Assembly (NCBI GenBank): GCA_023261505.1
Contig: JAHFOV010000015.1
Span: 1-40,444 of the forward strand
Origin: Planctomycetota bacterium
GTDB lineage: Bacteria; Planctomycetota; Brocadiia; Brocadiales; Bathyanammoxibiaceae
Direction of reading: 5' to 3'
Length of the DNA stretch: 40,444 bases
The position numbers and the translations under genes are program-made. This document shows, piece after piece, positions 2,985 through 33,807 of the stretch. Numbering within the stretch: position 1 is the stretch's first letter; every line of letters starts with the position of its first letter. Under the pieces are notes generated by a model, which did no database searches, was not told where the DNA came from, and was given only the letters and a program-made list of their open reading frames with translations.

Positions 2985-3014
2985 GCTATCACGCAGGCTA
3001 AAGCTTGCGGCTAC
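2985..3014. repeat. GTAGCCGC-type repeat, 30-bp identical copy 2
   Basis: Perfect 30-base copy of 2814-2843, beginning GCTATCACGCAGGC and ending GCGGCTAC. It abuts the stop codon of the lipase gene. With copy 1 it brackets the small membrane-peptide gene. Confidence 0.9.
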
Positions 3015-16829: not shown

Positions 16830-17600
16830 ATGAAGCAGTCCTGGAAGGTCAAGAAAAATTCTTTATCCTTCTTTCCACGTTGGAAGATAGTATTTTTTCT
16901 TCTCCTTCCTATTCTGGTTGTTCTTGGCCTTTCTATCAGTCTTCCCCTGCTATTGTTAAAGAAAAGGCAGCCCGACTTGGAAACCCTGTGCAGAACCGAA
17001 GTTCCTGAGAACCACTGGCGGTTCATAGTGCTACATCATAGCGCCACTCGTGAGGGCTCCGCAGCCAGGTTTGACACCTTTCACCGCAATGTAAGGGGAT
17101 GGGAAAACGGCCTCGGCTACCATTTCGTCATAGGCAATGGAAATGGCTCTGGAGATGGAGAGATAGAGGTGGGTAAACGCTGGAGGAAACAACTCTCCGG
17201 CGCCCATGCAGGTGACCCCATATATAACCGTCAGGGTATAGGTATCTGTCTTGTGGGGAATTTTGAAGAAGGAGATAAACCCACCAAGCGGCAGATTAAG
17301 TCTTTGATAAGAGTTGTTAATTATTTGTCTCAAAAATACGACATTCCGCTATCCTCTATTGTCATGCATAAGGAGGTTCATGATACAGCTTGCCCTGGGA
17401 AGAATTTCCCGTACAAGAAGTTGATGGACAGCTTAAGCCGCTTAAGGCGGACGGTCTCTAAAGAGGGTAAGAGCCAAAACCACGCGGAACGGGCGCAGGG
17501 ACAAATTTCAAAATCCAAATGTCAAATGAAACCCAAAGTCCAAATGTCAAATAAAGTCCCCACTTTGGCATTTGGGCTTTGTAATTTGGATTTTACCTAA
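16830..17600 (+). CDS. Membrane-anchored N-acetylmuramoyl-L-alanine amidase (PGRP/Amidase_2)
   Basis: Zinc amidase of the peptidoglycan-recognition fold, probably cutting the bond between MurNAc and L-Ala in the periplasm. A basic N-terminus and one hydrophobic segment (about 19-43) anchor it, with the catalytic domain outside. Zinc ligands are visible: one of the histidines in FIVLHHSAT (69/70), His180 in VMHKEVHD and Cys188 in ACPGKNFP. GYHFVIGNG and GIGICLVGNFE are typical core strands. The last 32 residues (from about 225) come from a dispersed repeat and are not part of the fold. The stop TAA overlaps the next ATG as TAATG. A short 5' leader follows a consensus promoter. Confidence 0.88.
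   Translation: MKQSWKVKKNSLSFFPRWKIVFFLLLPILVVLGLSISLPLLLLKKRQPDLETLCRTEVPENHWRFIVLHHSATREGSAARFDTFHRNVRGWENGLGYHFVIGNGNGSGDGEIEVGKRWRKQLSGAHAGDPIYNRQGIGICLVGNFEEGDKPTKRQIKSLIRVVNYLSQKYDIPLSSIVMHKEVHDTACPGKNFPYKKLMDSLSRLRRTVSKEGKSQNHAERAQGQISKSKCQMKPKVQMSNKVPTLAFGLCNLDFT
17501..17595. repeat. CAAAT/ATTTG dispersed repeat inside the amidase 3' end
   Basis: Left arm carries 'ATCCAAATGTCAAATG' and 'GTCCAAATGTCAAAT' units; the right arm 'TTTGGCATTTGGGCTTTG' and 'TAATTTGGATTT' complements it. It is read in frame as the C-terminal tail of the amidase and ends just before the endonuclease V start. Confidence 0.8.
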
Positions 17601-18370
17601 TGAGATTTAGAAAGCTCCACCCTTGGCGGGTAAGCTATCACGAGGCTGTAAGGCTCCAGGATAGGTTAAGGGAGTGTCTTGTCCTCAAAGGATTTAAAGG
17701 GTTGCCCCGTACTATAGCAGGGGCAGACGTGGCTTATAGCAAGCAAACTAACCAGGTATACGCCGGAATCGTAGTCTTTGATTTTCGCAGCATGGAACCC
17801 CTTGACAAGTCCTTTGCTGTAGCAAAGGCTAGTTTTCCTTACGTTCCTGGCCTTCTTAGTTTTAGAGAGGCGCCGATTTTGTTGAGGGCCTTTAGCCGGC
17901 TAAAGAGTGAACCCGACGTCCTGCTTTTTGATGGGCAGGGTATTGCCCATCCCAGGGGTTTCGGCCTTGCCAGCCACATGGGACTCCTACTTGATAAGCC
18001 CTCAGTGGGCTGTGCCAAGGACGTTCTTGTGGGGGAGTACGGGCCCGTAGGCAGTGAGGCTGGGTCATATTCTTACCTCTTTTACAAAGGTAAACGTGTA
18101 GGAGCGGCAGTGAGAACCAGGAAGCTAGTTAAGCCAGTTTTTGTCTCTCAAGGGCATAAAATTAGTTTATCTTCCTCCATAAAGATAGTATTCAGCAGTT
18201 GCAGGGGTTATAGGCTTCCGGAACCTTTACGTTGGGCCCATAACCTGGTCAGTCAGTTGAGATCCTCCTTCGAGGAAAAGTCCAAAATAAAAGCGGGTCA
18301 TTACGAGGGGCGAAGCCCCGAAGCAATCCCTGCAACACACAATGAGATTACTTCGCTTCGCTCGCAATGA
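17600..18370 (+). CDS. nfi: Endonuclease V
   Basis: DNA repair enzyme that nicks DNA (or RNA) at the second phosphodiester 3' of deoxyinosine and related deaminated bases. The RNase H-like catalytic residues align with characterised enzymes: Asp43 in AGADVAYS, Tyr80 in the wedge FPYVPG, Glu90 in SFREAP, Asp111 in LLFDGQG and His117 in IAHPRGFG. Gly-rich GLASHMGLL and the SVGCAKDVLVG strand follow. The start overlaps the amidase stop (TAATG). The last 24 or so residues (from about 233) are encoded by a dispersed palindromic element rather than native sequence. Confidence 0.93.
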   Translation: MRFRKLHPWRVSYHEAVRLQDRLRECLVLKGFKGLPRTIAGADVAYSKQTNQVYAGIVVFDFRSMEPLDKSFAVAKASFPYVPGLLSFREAPILLRAFSRLKSEPDVLLFDGQGIAHPRGFGLASHMGLLLDKPSVGCAKDVLVGEYGPVGSEAGSYSYLFYKGKRVGAAVRTRKLVKPVFVSQGHKISLSSSIKIVFSSCRGYRLPEPLRWAHNLVSQLRSSFEEKSKIKAGHYEGRSPEAIPATHNEITSLRSQ

Positions 18371-18371
18371 C
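18297..18371. repeat. GTCATTGC-type palindromic element (75 bp)
   Basis: Element with near-perfect terminal inverted repeats, GTCATTACGAG on the left and CTCGCAATGAC on the right. It encodes the C-terminal tail of endonuclease V in one frame and, from base 18342, the start codon and first ten residues of the archaemetzincin in another. A longer relative is at 32366-32500 and a partial one ends at 33800. Confidence 0.85.
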
Positions 18372-26095: not shown

Positions 26096-26159
26096 GTAGC
26101 CGCTCCGCCTGAGGCGGATAGCCTGCGTGAAATTTACGCAACCTAAAGGTTGCGGCTAC
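26096..26159. repeat. GTAGCCGC-type palindromic repeat, copy 3
   Basis: Begins GTAGCCGCTCCGCC and ends GGTTGCGGCTAC; internal segments GCCTGCGTGA and ACGCAACC complement the arms. Same family as 2784-2843. It lies in the 347-bp gap between cobB and the heptose kinase gene, which otherwise holds only the next repeat and no gene. Confidence 0.75.
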
Positions 26160-29781: not shown

Positions 29782-30831
29782 TTACGTCGCTGCTACCTCC
29801 ACCATCAGTTCCCTGCAGGCCTCCACTACCTTCTCTGGTTTTATCCACTCCATACAGCGATGGTCTTTGGGGCATTCTTTGAGGTGGCATGGGGCACAGT
29901 CTACCCTTTCCCGGATAACCCTACCGATTTCCTGGCTGGTATGCGTATAGCGGGGATCCGTAGGTCCCATAAGGACTACTACTGGCTTCTTGAAGGCTAC
30001 AGCAATATGCCTTGGGCCTGAGTCCACAGTGATAAGTGTAGAGACCTTTTTTATCAGGGCCTTAAGTAGGTCCAGGGTTATACGCTCATGGGTAAGGTTT
30101 AGAACCTTTCCCCTAGCGGCTTTTTCTATCTTGGAGGCTGTGTCCTTTTCCTGCGGAGCGGATGCCAGCAGTACATGGCAGTCAAACTCCTCGTGGAGCA
30201 GTTCCGCAGTCCTGGCGAAACCCGCCGTGGTCCAGCTCTTGGAGGAGCCGAAGGAAGCTCCTGGGTTTATCAAAAATACGGGCTTATTTTTTGATATTTT
30301 GTATTTAGAGAAGAGCTTATTAATCTTCTCCATGCTTTCTTTGGAGGCGAAGAGTTCTAGCTCCCCGGAGCTTATCTCACAGCCAGCGCTGGCACAGAGC
30401 CTGAGATAATAATCGGCCATATAGGCGGGGCGAAATCTTCCCTTTTCTTTAAATCTCTTAACCCCCTGTGTGAGGAGCCAGGAGCGGGCGTCTCTTATGT
30501 AGCCCACCCTTTGTTTTATCCCGGCAAGCCAGGCTACCAGGGCGGAACTGAAGGAGTTAGGTAGTATAAAGCCCATGTCGAATTGTTCCTTTCGGAGTCT
30601 TCTGATGAGGGCAAGATATCTCCCGGGTTGCTTGTGCTTTTCCTTTGGGTCAAATTCAATCCACTCATCGAACCATGGTGCTCCTTCCAGTACCCCTTTT
30701 ATAAAGGGCCTTAGGAGGAGAGAGATTTTGGCCTTTGGAAAGTTCTCCCTGACGCACCTGAAGGCGGGGGTGGCCATGACTGCATCGCCCACCCAATTAG
30801 GGGCAGTTATGAGAATAGATTTTGGCTTCAT
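29782..30831 (-). CDS. waaF: Lipopolysaccharide heptosyltransferase (WaaF family, GT9)
   Basis: 349-aa glycosyltransferase family 9 enzyme that adds L,D- or D,D-heptose from ADP-heptose to the LPS inner core. The start MKPKSILITAPNWVGDAVM, then ATPAFRCVRENFP and LLRPF, are characteristic. The C-terminal donor site shows PGASFGSSKSW, STLITVDSGPRHIAVAF and LMGPTDPRYT. A conserved cysteine motif CAPCHLKECPKDHRCM follows. ATG at 30831 overlaps the stop of the upstream radical SAM gene (TAATG) and has GGGAGG ahead. It uses the ADP-heptose made by gmhA, gmhB and hldE upstream. Confidence 0.92.
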   Translation of the reverse strand: MKPKSILITAPNWVGDAVMATPAFRCVRENFPKAKISLLLRPFIKGVLEGAPWFDEWIEFDPKEKHKQPGRYLALIRRLRKEQFDMGFILPNSFSSALVAWLAGIKQRVGYIRDARSWLLTQGVKRFKEKGRFRPAYMADYYLRLCASAGCEISSGELELFASKESMEKINKLFSKYKISKNKPVFLINPGASFGSSKSWTTAGFARTAELLHEEFDCHVLLASAPQEKDTASKIEKAARGKVLNLTHERITLDLLKALIKKVSTLITVDSGPRHIAVAFKKPVVVLMGPTDPRYTHTSQEIGRVIRERVDCAPCHLKECPKDHRCMEWIKPEKVVEACRELMVEVAAT

Positions 30832-32339
30832 TATCCCTCCCAATCCGATGTAACGGCTGTAAAAGAATTATAACGAAAAGCGTAATGTTTAAAATGGGCC
30901 TTTTTCAAAAGGATAGAAAGTTCCCTATCAATGGTAGATACTTTTCCACTGAAGTCCTTCCAGGCCTCCGCAGGCATGTCTTCTATGGTCTTTGCCAGAG
31001 TGCTGTAGAGGCCAACTATTGAGTTGGATGAATACCTGTTTATGAACCAGGGAAAGGTACGCTGGAGCTTGGAGATAAAGAGGTTATGTTCCTGGCCGAA
31101 ATTCAGACAGGAGGCCTCGGTGAAGTTCTCAAGGCTCTGCATCTTTTCGAAATCAATGTAACCTCCTTTCAGGCTCAACTCGTAGGCCTCTGTTCTAGGA
31201 AATGGGTAGAAGATAGACCAGCGGAAGCGCCCTGGTCTGATCCTGGCCAGAAGTTCAACGGTCTCCATTACCTCCTTTTTCCCCTCGTAAGGCAGCCCAA
31301 TCATGATGAAGGCAGAAGTATGGAGACCATACTTGTGTGCTAGTCCGAATGCCTTCTCAATCTCCGCGTTGGTCATCGGGCGGTGGAGGACCTCCCTTCT
31401 TATCCGTTCGCTGCCGCTCTCTATTCCAAACTTCACTATAGCACATCCTGCCTCCTTTAGCATCCTGGCCCGCTCCTCATCAAAGGCCCTTATATGGGCG
31501 TTTACCACAAAGGGGAACTGCGTAACACTGCGGTAATGTTGACAGAACTCCTTTAGATAATCCTTATCCAGGGTAAAGACGTCGTCATCAAAGATGAACA
31601 TTCTTATTCGCTGGTAATTGCTCTGCAGGTACTCTATCTCCTCGAAGACCTCCTCCAGGGAATGCTGGCGTATGTAGCCCAATTCCGACGGGGGCTTGCC
31701 GGTCTCCTGTCTGTAGCGGTCAACTATCCTGTGGTTAAAGCAGTAGGTGCAGCGGAAGGGGCAACCCCTGGAGGTCATGAGCCTCACCCAACCGTCCTCG
31801 GTGTCAATGAGTTTCTGCATATTAAAGAGCAAATAGTCCTTTCGGGGCAAGATGGAAAGGTTTACAAAGGGGCGTACATTGTTAGGGACTACTCTGCCGA
31901 CTTTCTTCGTCCAGATATTAGCGATAGTAGTAGTATCTTGACCCTTTTCCAGTCTTTCTGCCAATTCCAGAACCGCCTCCTCTCCCTCACCCACACAGGC
32001 AAAATCAAAGCAATCCTCTTTGAGCACTTCCTCTGGAACAAGGGTGGCATGAACGCCCCCCAGTACTATGGGTATATTTGAAAAGCTTTTGATAAGCCTG
32101 GCAATTTTCACTGCGGAGCGGTACTGAGGTGTTACTGCGGATATGCCTACCAGCCCTGGTTTAAAGTCTTCAATAAAGGTCCTAATTTCTTCATCTGCAG
32201 GAAGCCTGTCCAGCTTCTCGTTGAGGTTAAGGAGCTTTGTGGTATGGCCATGAGCCTTTAGCATAGCTGATACGAAGGCCAGACCGAAGTTGAATCCAAC
32301 TTGAGAGTTAATATTAGGGTATATAAAAAGTACCTTCAT
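30831..32339 (-). CDS. B12-binding-domain radical SAM protein in the heptose cluster
   Basis: 502-aa protein with a B12-binding-like N-terminal domain (NFGLAFVSAMLKAHGH, LVGISAVTPQYRSAVKIARL, GGVHATLVPEEVL, CVGEGEEAVLELA). The radical SAM core has SRGCPFRCTYC and VKFGIESGSERIRREVLHRP. It is translationally coupled on both sides: its ATG overlaps the gmhB stop (ATGA) and its TAA overlaps the waaF ATG. That placement suggests it modifies a heptose, lipid A or a core sugar, but the sequence gives no substrate. Similar in plan to the enzyme at 22245-23732, yet clearly a different subfamily. Confidence 0.88.
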   Translation of the reverse strand: MKVLFIYPNINSQVGFNFGLAFVSAMLKAHGHTTKLLNLNEKLDRLPADEEIRTFIEDFKPGLVGISAVTPQYRSAVKIARLIKSFSNIPIVLGGVHATLVPEEVLKEDCFDFACVGEGEEAVLELAERLEKGQDTTTIANIWTKKVGRVVPNNVRPFVNLSILPRKDYLLFNMQKLIDTEDGWVRLMTSRGCPFRCTYCFNHRIVDRYRQETGKPPSELGYIRQHSLEEVFEEIEYLQSNYQRIRMFIFDDDVFTLDKDYLKEFCQHYRSVTQFPFVVNAHIRAFDEERARMLKEAGCAIVKFGIESGSERIRREVLHRPMTNAEIEKAFGLAHKYGLHTSAFIMIGLPYEGKKEVMETVELLARIRPGRFRWSIFYPFPRTEAYELSLKGGYIDFEKMQSLENFTEASCLNFGQEHNLFISKLQRTFPWFINRYSSNSIVGLYSTLAKTIEDMPAEAWKDFSGKVSTIDRELSILLKKAHFKHYAFRYNSFTAVTSDWEG

Positions 32340-33061
32340 AGCTTGTTATTACCAGCTCCGAAGAGGTCATTGCGAGGAGCGGAGCGACGAAGTCCGCCAA
32401 ATAAATTGGCGGATCCGCCTCTGGTGGACAATCTCGTTGCCTCAAAATGGGATTGCTTCGCTGCCCCTTCGCTATGCTCAGGGCTACGGCTTGCAATGAC
32501 TATTCGCTGCGCGTCCTCTTTGGAACAAAGAATTTGAGCTGCCTTCCATATATCCCTGACAATAAGGTCTGGTTCAACTGGCATCTCTATCTCTTCATCA
32601 AAGTTTTTTACAAATACAGTTTTGCAACCGGCACTCTTGCCAGCCAAGACATCCGCTGGGGTATCGCCAATCATAAAAGATTCTCTCAGGGCTATACCAT
32701 GTTCCCTTGCGGCCCTCAGGAGCATTCCAGTTTTGGGTTTCCTGCACTGGCATTCTATACTGTATTCAGGTGCTGTACCTTCAAGAAGATGGGGGCAGTA
32801 ATAAATGGCGTCGATGCTAGCGCCTTCTTGAAAGAGCATCTCAAGAAGCCTCTGGTGGATTTCTTTAAGTCTATCTTCTGTGAAATATCCCCTTGCTACG
32901 CCGGACTGGTTAGTGGCAATAATTACCTTAAACCCTTCTTCCTTAAAGAGCCTTATCGCCCTGGCAGAATGTGGTAATAACACTATTTCCTCAGGAGAGG
33001 AGAGATAAGGAACACCCTGGATTATTGTGCCATCTCTGTCTAGAAAGATCGCTTTTGCCAA
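32336..33061 (-). CDS. gmhB: D-glycero-D-manno-heptose 1,7-bisphosphate 7-phosphatase with in-frame repeat insertion
   Basis: HAD-type phosphatase that removes the 7-phosphate of heptose 1,7-bisphosphate in ADP-heptose synthesis. The nucleophile motif is IFLDRDGTI, then ATNQSGVARG and the zinc-binding YYCPHL...CQCRKP loop (usual for GmhB). FMIGDTPADVLAGKSAGC is motif IV. The protein is 241 aa, while the family has about 180-200. The excess is a 45-codon insert (residues 188-232) exactly matching the palindromic element at 32366-32500, after which the frame continues for nine residues to the stop. The stop overlaps the radical SAM start by ATGA. Confidence 0.92.
   Translation of the reverse strand: MAKAIFLDRDGTIIQGVPYLSSPEEIVLLPHSARAIRLFKEEGFKVIIATNQSGVARGYFTEDRLKEIHQRLLEMLFQEGASIDAIYYCPHLLEGTAPEYSIECQCRKPKTGMLLRAAREHGIALRESFMIGDTPADVLAGKSAGCKTVFVKNFDEEIEMPVEPDLIVRDIWKAAQILCSKEDAQRIVIASRSPEHSEGAAKQSHFEATRLSTRGGSANLFGGLRRSAPRNDLFGAGNNKL
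32366..32500. repeat. GTCATTGC-type palindromic element, 135 bp, in frame within gmhB
   Basis: Terminal inverted repeats GTCATTGC and GCAATGAC, with inner complementary blocks (GGAGCGGAGCGACGAAG versus CTTCGCTGCC-type text; TTGGCGGATCCGCC palindrome). The length is 135 bp = 45 codons, and its ends coincide with codon boundaries 188 and 232 of gmhB. No obvious target-site duplication flanks it. Confidence 0.88.
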
Positions 33062-33069
33062 CTAGATAA

Positions 33070-33672
33070 TTATCCTCCTTTCTCCTTCGTCGTAGTAGAA
33101 TGGTTTTCTCCAAAAAGCTCTTTTTCAATAAGGTAGCATAATACGTGACTTACTGCCATATGGCATTCCTGTATCCTTGGCGTGTTGTCCGAGGGGACCC
33201 GCAGGCAGAGATCTACCAGTTCTTTCATCTTACCGCCCGATTGTCCCGTCAGGCCGATAGTTGCAGCCCCTTTCTTTCTAGCAAGCTGTAGTGCCTTTAG
33301 TACGGCTGGGGAGTTTCCACTTGTAGAAAGACCAAGTACCACGTCTCCCTCCTTCACGAAGGCCTCCACCTGCCTTTCAAAGCAGCTATCAAATCCATAG
33401 TCGTTAGCCAGGGCTGTTAGGACGGAGCTATCTGCACTGAAGGCCAGGGCCGGCAGGGCAGACCTATCCTTTTTAAACCTCCCTATTAATTCTCCTGCTA
33501 TGTGCTGGGCCTCCGCAGCGCTACCTCCATGACCCATTAGATACACTGTATGGCCTTTGCGTAGGCATTGCACAAGGACACTAGCTATCTTTTTTATAGT
33601 TTCTTTACCTTTAAAAAGGAGGGCCTGACTTACCTCTATGCCCTCACGTAGTTCTCTTTCTATTTCTTCCAT
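33070..33672 (-). CDS. gmhA: Sedoheptulose 7-phosphate isomerase (phosphoheptose isomerase)
   Basis: 200-aa SIS-domain enzyme catalysing the first step of ADP-heptose synthesis, sedoheptulose 7-phosphate to heptose 7-phosphate. Substrate-binding motifs: MGHGGSAAEAQHIAGELIG near residue 46, then LGLSTSGNSPAVLKAL and IGLTGQSGGKM. The metal/active-site histidine lies in IQECHMAVSHVLC. Length matches GmhA. It is eight bases upstream of gmhB and downstream of hldE, so the three form the ordered pathway. Confidence 0.94.
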   Translation of the reverse strand: MEEIERELREGIEVSQALLFKGKETIKKIASVLVQCLRKGHTVYLMGHGGSAAEAQHIAGELIGRFKKDRSALPALAFSADSSVLTALANDYGFDSCFERQVEAFVKEGDVVLGLSTSGNSPAVLKALQLARKKGAATIGLTGQSGGKMKELVDLCLRVPSDNTPRIQECHMAVSHVLCYLIEKELFGENHSTTTKEKGG

Positions 33673-33717: not shown

Positions 33718-33800
33718 AGTGCCCGTCTAAGGCGGATTTTCAACATTGACTGTGTCAATGGCTCGGTTAATTGAGATTGCTTCGCTCCGCTCGCAATGAC
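33718..33800. repeat. Partial GTCATTGC-type repeat between hldE and gmhA
   Basis: Ends GATTGCTTCGCTCCGCTCGC AATGAC, the same right terminus as the elements at 18297 and 32366. Begins near GTGCCCGTCTAAGGCGG, probably a fused remnant of another repeat. The left GTCATT terminus is not evident. Confidence 0.65.
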
Positions 33801-33807
33801 AGACTCT

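Follow-up and report, generated by a model that had tools for sequence, protein, structure and literature searches.

The window analysed here, a 40,444-nucleotide stretch of DNA, forms contig C102 in a genome of 2.5 Mb and 147 contigs. Close to the 3′ end of its gmhB-like gene lies a 135-bp palindromic repeat with GTCATTGC/GCAATGAC termini, which amounts to 45 codons, has both limits on codon boundaries and is free of stops in the gmhB frame. In these respects, and in the coordinates and the ATGA overlap with the next gene, the description in the initial annotation was confirmed throughout. The features at the locus and the other members of the same repeat family in the window are given below.

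30831-32339, minus strand: gene for a B12-binding radical SAM protein, downstream of gmhB, its start overlapping the gmhB stop (ATGA)
32336-33061, minus strand: gene for a gmhB-like D-glycero-D-manno-heptose 1,7-bisphosphate 7-phosphatase of the HAD family, 241 aa; the element encodes residues 188-232
32366-32500, no strand assigned: head-head dimer of two REP arms with the GTC tags outermost, inserted in gmhB in frame
32366-32392, plus strand: outer half of arm 1, with GTC tag, ATTGC stem half, inner hairpin GGAGCGGAGCGAC and GAAG (from recurrence of the block and arm anatomy)
32393-32428, plus strand: 36-bp second palindromic module TCCGCCAAATAAATTGGCGGATCCGCCTCTGGTGGA, nested in arm 1 between GAAG and CAATC (from modules at the identical point in other dimers)
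32429-32435, plus strand: CAATCTC, the distal stem side and tail of arm 1 (by comparison with other copies)
32452-32500, minus strand: arm 2, reading GTCATTGC...GAAGCAATCC on the minus strand, with an internal GCCCTGAGCATAGCGAAGGGGC hairpin
33070-33672: gmhA-like SIS gene
33772-33801, minus strand: single arm of the focal repeat family, a remnant or half dimer, upstream of the gmhA-like gene
18297-18371, no strand assigned: second full dimer of the focal family in the window, 75 bp, which gives the stop codon of an endonuclease V ORF

The gmhB host gene and the structure of the element

The best NCBIfam match of the host protein, PRK08942, scores 161.5 bits, under the model's 178-bit cut-off; TIGR00213 matches as well, and the SIS-domain gmhA-like gene upstream adds to the identification. 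Given a score below the cut-off and the gmhA-like neighbour as the basis, "gmhB-like" is the careful wording. The element is translated as VIASRSPEHSEGAAKQSHFEATRLSTRGGSANLFGGLRRSAPRND and is followed by nine codons (LFGAGNNKL) and the stop, where the ATGA at 32336-32339 overlaps the next start. Without the insert GmhB would have 196 aa (241-45), in agreement with the arithmetic of the initial annotation. The insert lies 3′ of the HAD domain, with the best Pfam and NCBIfam matches ending by residue 179, and the tail beyond residue 182 is unconserved among relatives. In the predicted model the core has a pLDDT of 90-98 and residues 189-241 fall below 50, which suggests that the 45 added residues, with many basic residues and serine among them, are probably floppy. 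The insert should affect neither the enzyme nor the coupled start of the downstream gene. We infer both the translation of the tail and its neutrality.

GmhB matches were obtained in 48 genomes, and no relative aligns past residue 199 of 241. The insert is absent from the nearest relatives, G001 and G005 (77-79% identity), whose GmhB proteins have 190 aa; the relatives searched for an empty gmhB site all lie outside the focal genus. G001 and G005 carry 9 residues after ILCSR that are unalignable with the 15 residues flanking the focal element, and therefore neither the exact target site nor the "original" tail can be read from them. Of the earlier statement that the original nine-residue end was left intact, the nine codons after the element are thus in place, but their being the original end is not legible from these two genomes. 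We infer that the element moved in rather than arising in place.

The element strand has a folding energy of -67 kcal/mol (z = -4.35), with 0 of 200 shuffles equally stable. Its parts recur elsewhere in the genome. The 27-bp block 32366-32392 is found with 27/27 identity in contigs C42 and C41 and with 26/27 in C27 and C24; a relative of the 36-bp module 32393-32428 occurs alone in C37, C38, C57 and C76; and the GCCCTGAGCATAGCGAAGGGGC hairpin of arm 2 is seen again at 92% in C84, within a GTCATTCTGAG-type repeat. As a whole the element is unique, the best other copy reaching 84% over 97 bp, and it exceeds the typical 75-85 bp because one arm holds the 36-bp module and the other a second hairpin. 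The 135 bp delimit the repeat and were not read from an observed insertion event. Judged by its sequence, the element is a head-head heterodimer of CGTC-type REP kind and kin of the Rickettsia repeats RPE-4 and RPE-6.

The repeat family in the focal genome and beyond

The repeat nature proposed in the initial annotation is borne out by 57 exact matches of GTCATTGCGAGNRNNG in the genome versus 0 for a reversed-pattern control. We counted at least 40 dimers of 70-237 bp with outward GTCATTGCGAG ends in 935 kb of the focal genome, the census covering the contig stretches around the listed matches with at most one mismatch (0.94 of 2.5 Mb) and its script seeking the head-head layout, with outward tags, only. 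The arms follow the plan GTC-ATTGC-GA-(inner hairpin)-GAA-GCAAT-CTC/CCC. The outer stem ATTGC/GCAAT is 5 bp long and starts with AT; then come a GA/GAA mismatch and, in most parsed arms, an inner hairpin of 2-6 bp, and the tail is CTC or CCC in most copies. The inner hairpins vary in sequence among copies and are mostly still self-complementary (GGGGCGAAGCCCC, GGGACTAAGTCCC, GGGCCAAAGGCCC, TCCGCCTTAGGCGGA). At 80 ends the base preceding GTC is T in 47, G in 17, A in 11 and C in 5, the focal copy having G and A, and the two arms within one dimer mostly differ in type. A second palindromic module of 27-88 bp lies between GAAG and CAATC of one arm in 11 of the 40 dimers, and related modules also stand alone in the genome. 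The module occupies a fixed point of the arm, for example at 32393-32428, as if one repeat family inserts into another. An Rfam search with the element gave no match at E ≤ 1, and a literature search for the literal motif GTCATTGCGAG returned no related paper by title and abstract.

Elsewhere in the window, the endonuclease V ORF (17600-18370) ends in the 75-bp dimer at 18297-18371, which provides its stop codon, and the open frame of the next ORF, an M54 peptidase, reaches back into this dimer. Short repeats of the form GTAGCCGCAACCT...AGGTTGCGT at 2784-2843, 2985-3014 and 26130-26159 resemble GTAG-tagged REPs, a different family.

Arms are present in each of the nine genomes of the taxonomic family and in most of the order, with 0 to 95 per genome. 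In a sample of the phylum there are matches in 81 of 294 genomes, 1-2 in many of them and 18-45 in a few distant families. Novosphingobium plasmids carry full-length dimers of 80 bp whose tags are true CGTC and whose tails are CCA; these dimers share 76-77% identity with a 75-bp copy of the focal genome (E = 2e-6). The phage records searched gave a 24-bp match only. On the chromosome of G033 the orientation of GTCATTGCGAG arms is mildly clustered (20 runs versus 29.7 expected, p = 0.005, runs test), a pattern that tandem pairs and operon structure could produce.

We considered a RAYT as the mover and rejected it. The genome's only Y1_Tnp-like ORF is a weak partial match (L229, G000:C118, 1393-2223, minus strand), the 2454 bp around it contain no GTCATTGC, and across 59 genomes the copy number of the element shows no correlation with the Y1_Tnp count (Spearman -0.08, p = 0.54). 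This ORF itself has stretches, such as ITVGVDLCVSPMGEHVGLGGHIGPPL, that resemble another translated in-frame repeat.

Insertions in coding sequence and how they are explained

Besides the gmhB copy, two dimers lie within genes of the focal genome (G000):

C27:40124-40216: in-frame copy in uvrC, 93 bp, UvrC residues 502-532
C19:6953-7037: copy in the ORF of an M28 peptidase, 85 bp, the ORF staying open

Both are situated at variable loops, whose length and sequence differ among relatives. The uvrC copy makes up 31 residues within the RNase H endonuclease domain; in this loop relatives are without the copy and have other short sequences, G005 a GGAGACA tandem repeat. The linker holding the M28 copy is occupied by a tandem repeat in G001 and by a different palindrome in G005. 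The 85 bp of the M28 copy are not a multiple of three, so the frame there depends on flanking changes, and this copy shows that the limits of a repeat and those of an insertion need not coincide. In the same M28 gene, residues about 307-331 (SVGAYCSPRRICLRHDNTPLQ) match dozens of unrelated places in G001, G007 and G009, which suggests in-frame translation of a further interspersed repeat there. It is conceivable, though we regard it as doubtful, that in this planctomycete lineage short repeats of several unrelated kinds recurrently enter the same variable loops of housekeeping proteins (uvrC, M28, the gmhB tail) and are kept translated, as a source of new loops outside Rickettsia; if so, a REP insertion within the UvrC endonuclease domain could alter DNA repair.

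We examined whether dimer lengths, frames and positions set coding insertions apart. Lengths leaving a remainder of 0, 1 or 2 on division by three number 14/17/9 in the focal genome, 11/13/16 in G033 and 4/8/11 in G048. The enrichment of lengths divisible by three, set beforehand as a check, is thus absent from all three genomes (29 of 103 dimers together). Among the 240 strand-frames of the 40 focal dimers, 80 are stop-free, 29 of them in dimers with a length divisible by three, and about 12% of random placements, flanking codons ignored, would be in frame and open. Counting ORFs of 120 aa or longer, we found three of the 40 dimers inside one versus 29.5 expected at random (500 runs, minimum 18) and seven overlapping one versus 35.2 expected (500 runs, minimum 27), an avoidance of genes of about tenfold. 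None of 40 dimers in G033 lies within an ORF of at least 130 aa; in G048, 4 of 23 do, in short ORFs that resemble chance frames through repeats. Frame-breaking insertions in decayed genes are counted as intergenic, and therefore the depletion describes what persists, not where dimers land. With 3 of 40 dimers in ORFs against 29.5 expected, gene insertions have thus been removed, and the gmhB, uvrC and M28 copies are survivors. Most copies are flanked by co-directional or convergent genes, at a median of 79 bp to gene 3′ ends, and the heterodimers show no preferred orientation relative to flanking genes (10 vs 8; 6 vs 5).

The explanation that we hold to be very likely is that a CGTC-type REP dimer, one among at least several dozen copies, inserted in the last codons of gmhB and survived in frame and stop-free in an unconserved, predicted-disordered tail. 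In this scenario, a head-head heterodimer would have entered the gene in frame by chance and would have persisted because it was stop-free and the C-terminal tail is unconserved and predicted to be disordered. Purifying selection together with a tolerant tail accounts best for the in-frame state, and the element is a tolerated passenger rather than a special coding element. The initial annotation had instead pictured a mobile repeat selected for coding tolerance. A repeat specialised for coding regions, with length and frames under selection as proposed for Rickettsia RPEs, would fit the three in-frame intragenic copies, but the counts do not bear it out: lengths show no multiple-of-three bias in the focal genome, G033 or G048, only a third of the strand-frames is open, genes are avoided, completely so in G033, and the M28 copy relies on flanking changes for its frame. 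We therefore judge such specialisation very improbable. Equally improbable is that the GmhB tail has been co-opted for localisation, partner binding or stability. The intact frame and downstream coupling and the basic, serine-rich composition would be in keeping with a function, yet the tail occurs in no relative, is predicted to be disordered, and has a sequence that is the translation of the repeat, also encountered at the ends of other ORFs and in spurious ones.

A role at the RNA or DNA level, with a hairpin in the gmhB mRNA tuning expression or termination before the radical SAM gene, is compatible with the insertion of a REP dimer that survived, and we consider it unlikely, though less so than the two preceding proposals. 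It is suggested by the strong RNA fold and by the position of most copies close to gene 3′ ends between co-directional or convergent genes, the arrangement also described for CGTC-tagged REPs (PMC3733652). However, the copies have no preferred orientation relative to genes, ribosomes translating gmhB would cross the element, and avoidance of promoters and genes yields the same position pattern. Finally, a draft genome of 147 contigs could contain contigs misjoined at repeats, but an assembly artefact is extremely unlikely here: the element is short and unique as a whole, and both of its operon flanks are homologous to relatives with the same gene order. With the REP-insertion explanation, a Brocadiales-type planctomycete joins Rickettsia, the best-known case, as a host of CGTC-type REPs inserted in frame, and the counts show that coding insertions are rare survivors and not the element's habit.

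Comparison with known REP and RPE systems

CGTC-tagged REPs have stems starting with AT, occur mainly as head-head dimers with the tags outside, have structured spacers, include intragenic units in several species and lack an associated transposase (Di Nocera et al. 2013, PMC3733652). The focal repeats resemble them in their short GTC-AT arms, structured spacers and head-head heterodimers, the latter represented by the 40 dimers in 935 kb, where this layout was the sole one sought. They are likewise mostly intergenic with some intragenic copies (3 of 40 inside ORFs, 7 overlapping), and a transposase link is absent, Y1_Tnp being what was looked at. The published consensus comprises a terminal unpaired CGTC tag, often TGTC or CCTC, an 8-9 bp stem with a complementary A-T start, a loop of 4-5 and a 3-base tail, mostly CCA (PMC3733652). 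In contrast, the tag here is mostly TGTC (GGTC and AGTC in the focal copy), tails are CTC or CCC, the stem is interrupted, and a further palindromic module is nested at a fixed point in 11 of the 40 dimers. Since the tag and tail letters deviate from the consensus, CGTC-type is the best name, and on these sequence features the focal repeats are probably a further subfamily of CGTC-type REPs. The results of that study list hosts among Proteobacteria, Chlorobi, Bacteroidetes, Spirochaetes and Thermotogae, including Novosphingobium, and its abstract and discussion name Planctomycetes for the two superfamilies jointly (PMC3733652). Such repeats, and REPs within genes, have been described from several phyla, and the unrelated lineage named in the initial annotation is not supported as a novelty.

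RAYT-mobilised GTAG REPs and REPINs are similar in being inverted pairs of short palindromes, dispersed and mainly extragenic; unlike in those systems, the GTAG tag and a linked RAYT gene are absent here. The likeness to Rickettsia RPEs noted in the initial annotation goes beyond analogy. R. conorii RPE-6 and RPE-4 have been equated with CGTC-1 and CGTC-4 of the CGTC-tagged superfamily (PMC3733652), and RPE-4, -6 and -7 have an ATGAC motif in common (R. japonica genome paper, PMC3767692), which the focal GCAATGAC end also holds as part of its palindrome. Compared by description rather than by alignment, the focal repeats share with RPE-4, -6 and -7 the presence in ORFs with the frame kept, but intragenic copies, frequent among those RPEs, are a small minority here, and the phylum is another. 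In Rickettsia, insertions at times exceed the length of the repeat, and the repeats at or close to a given site can differ between orthologues (PMC3767692); differing repeat types at orthologous sites are likewise found here, in uvrC and the M28 peptidase gene.
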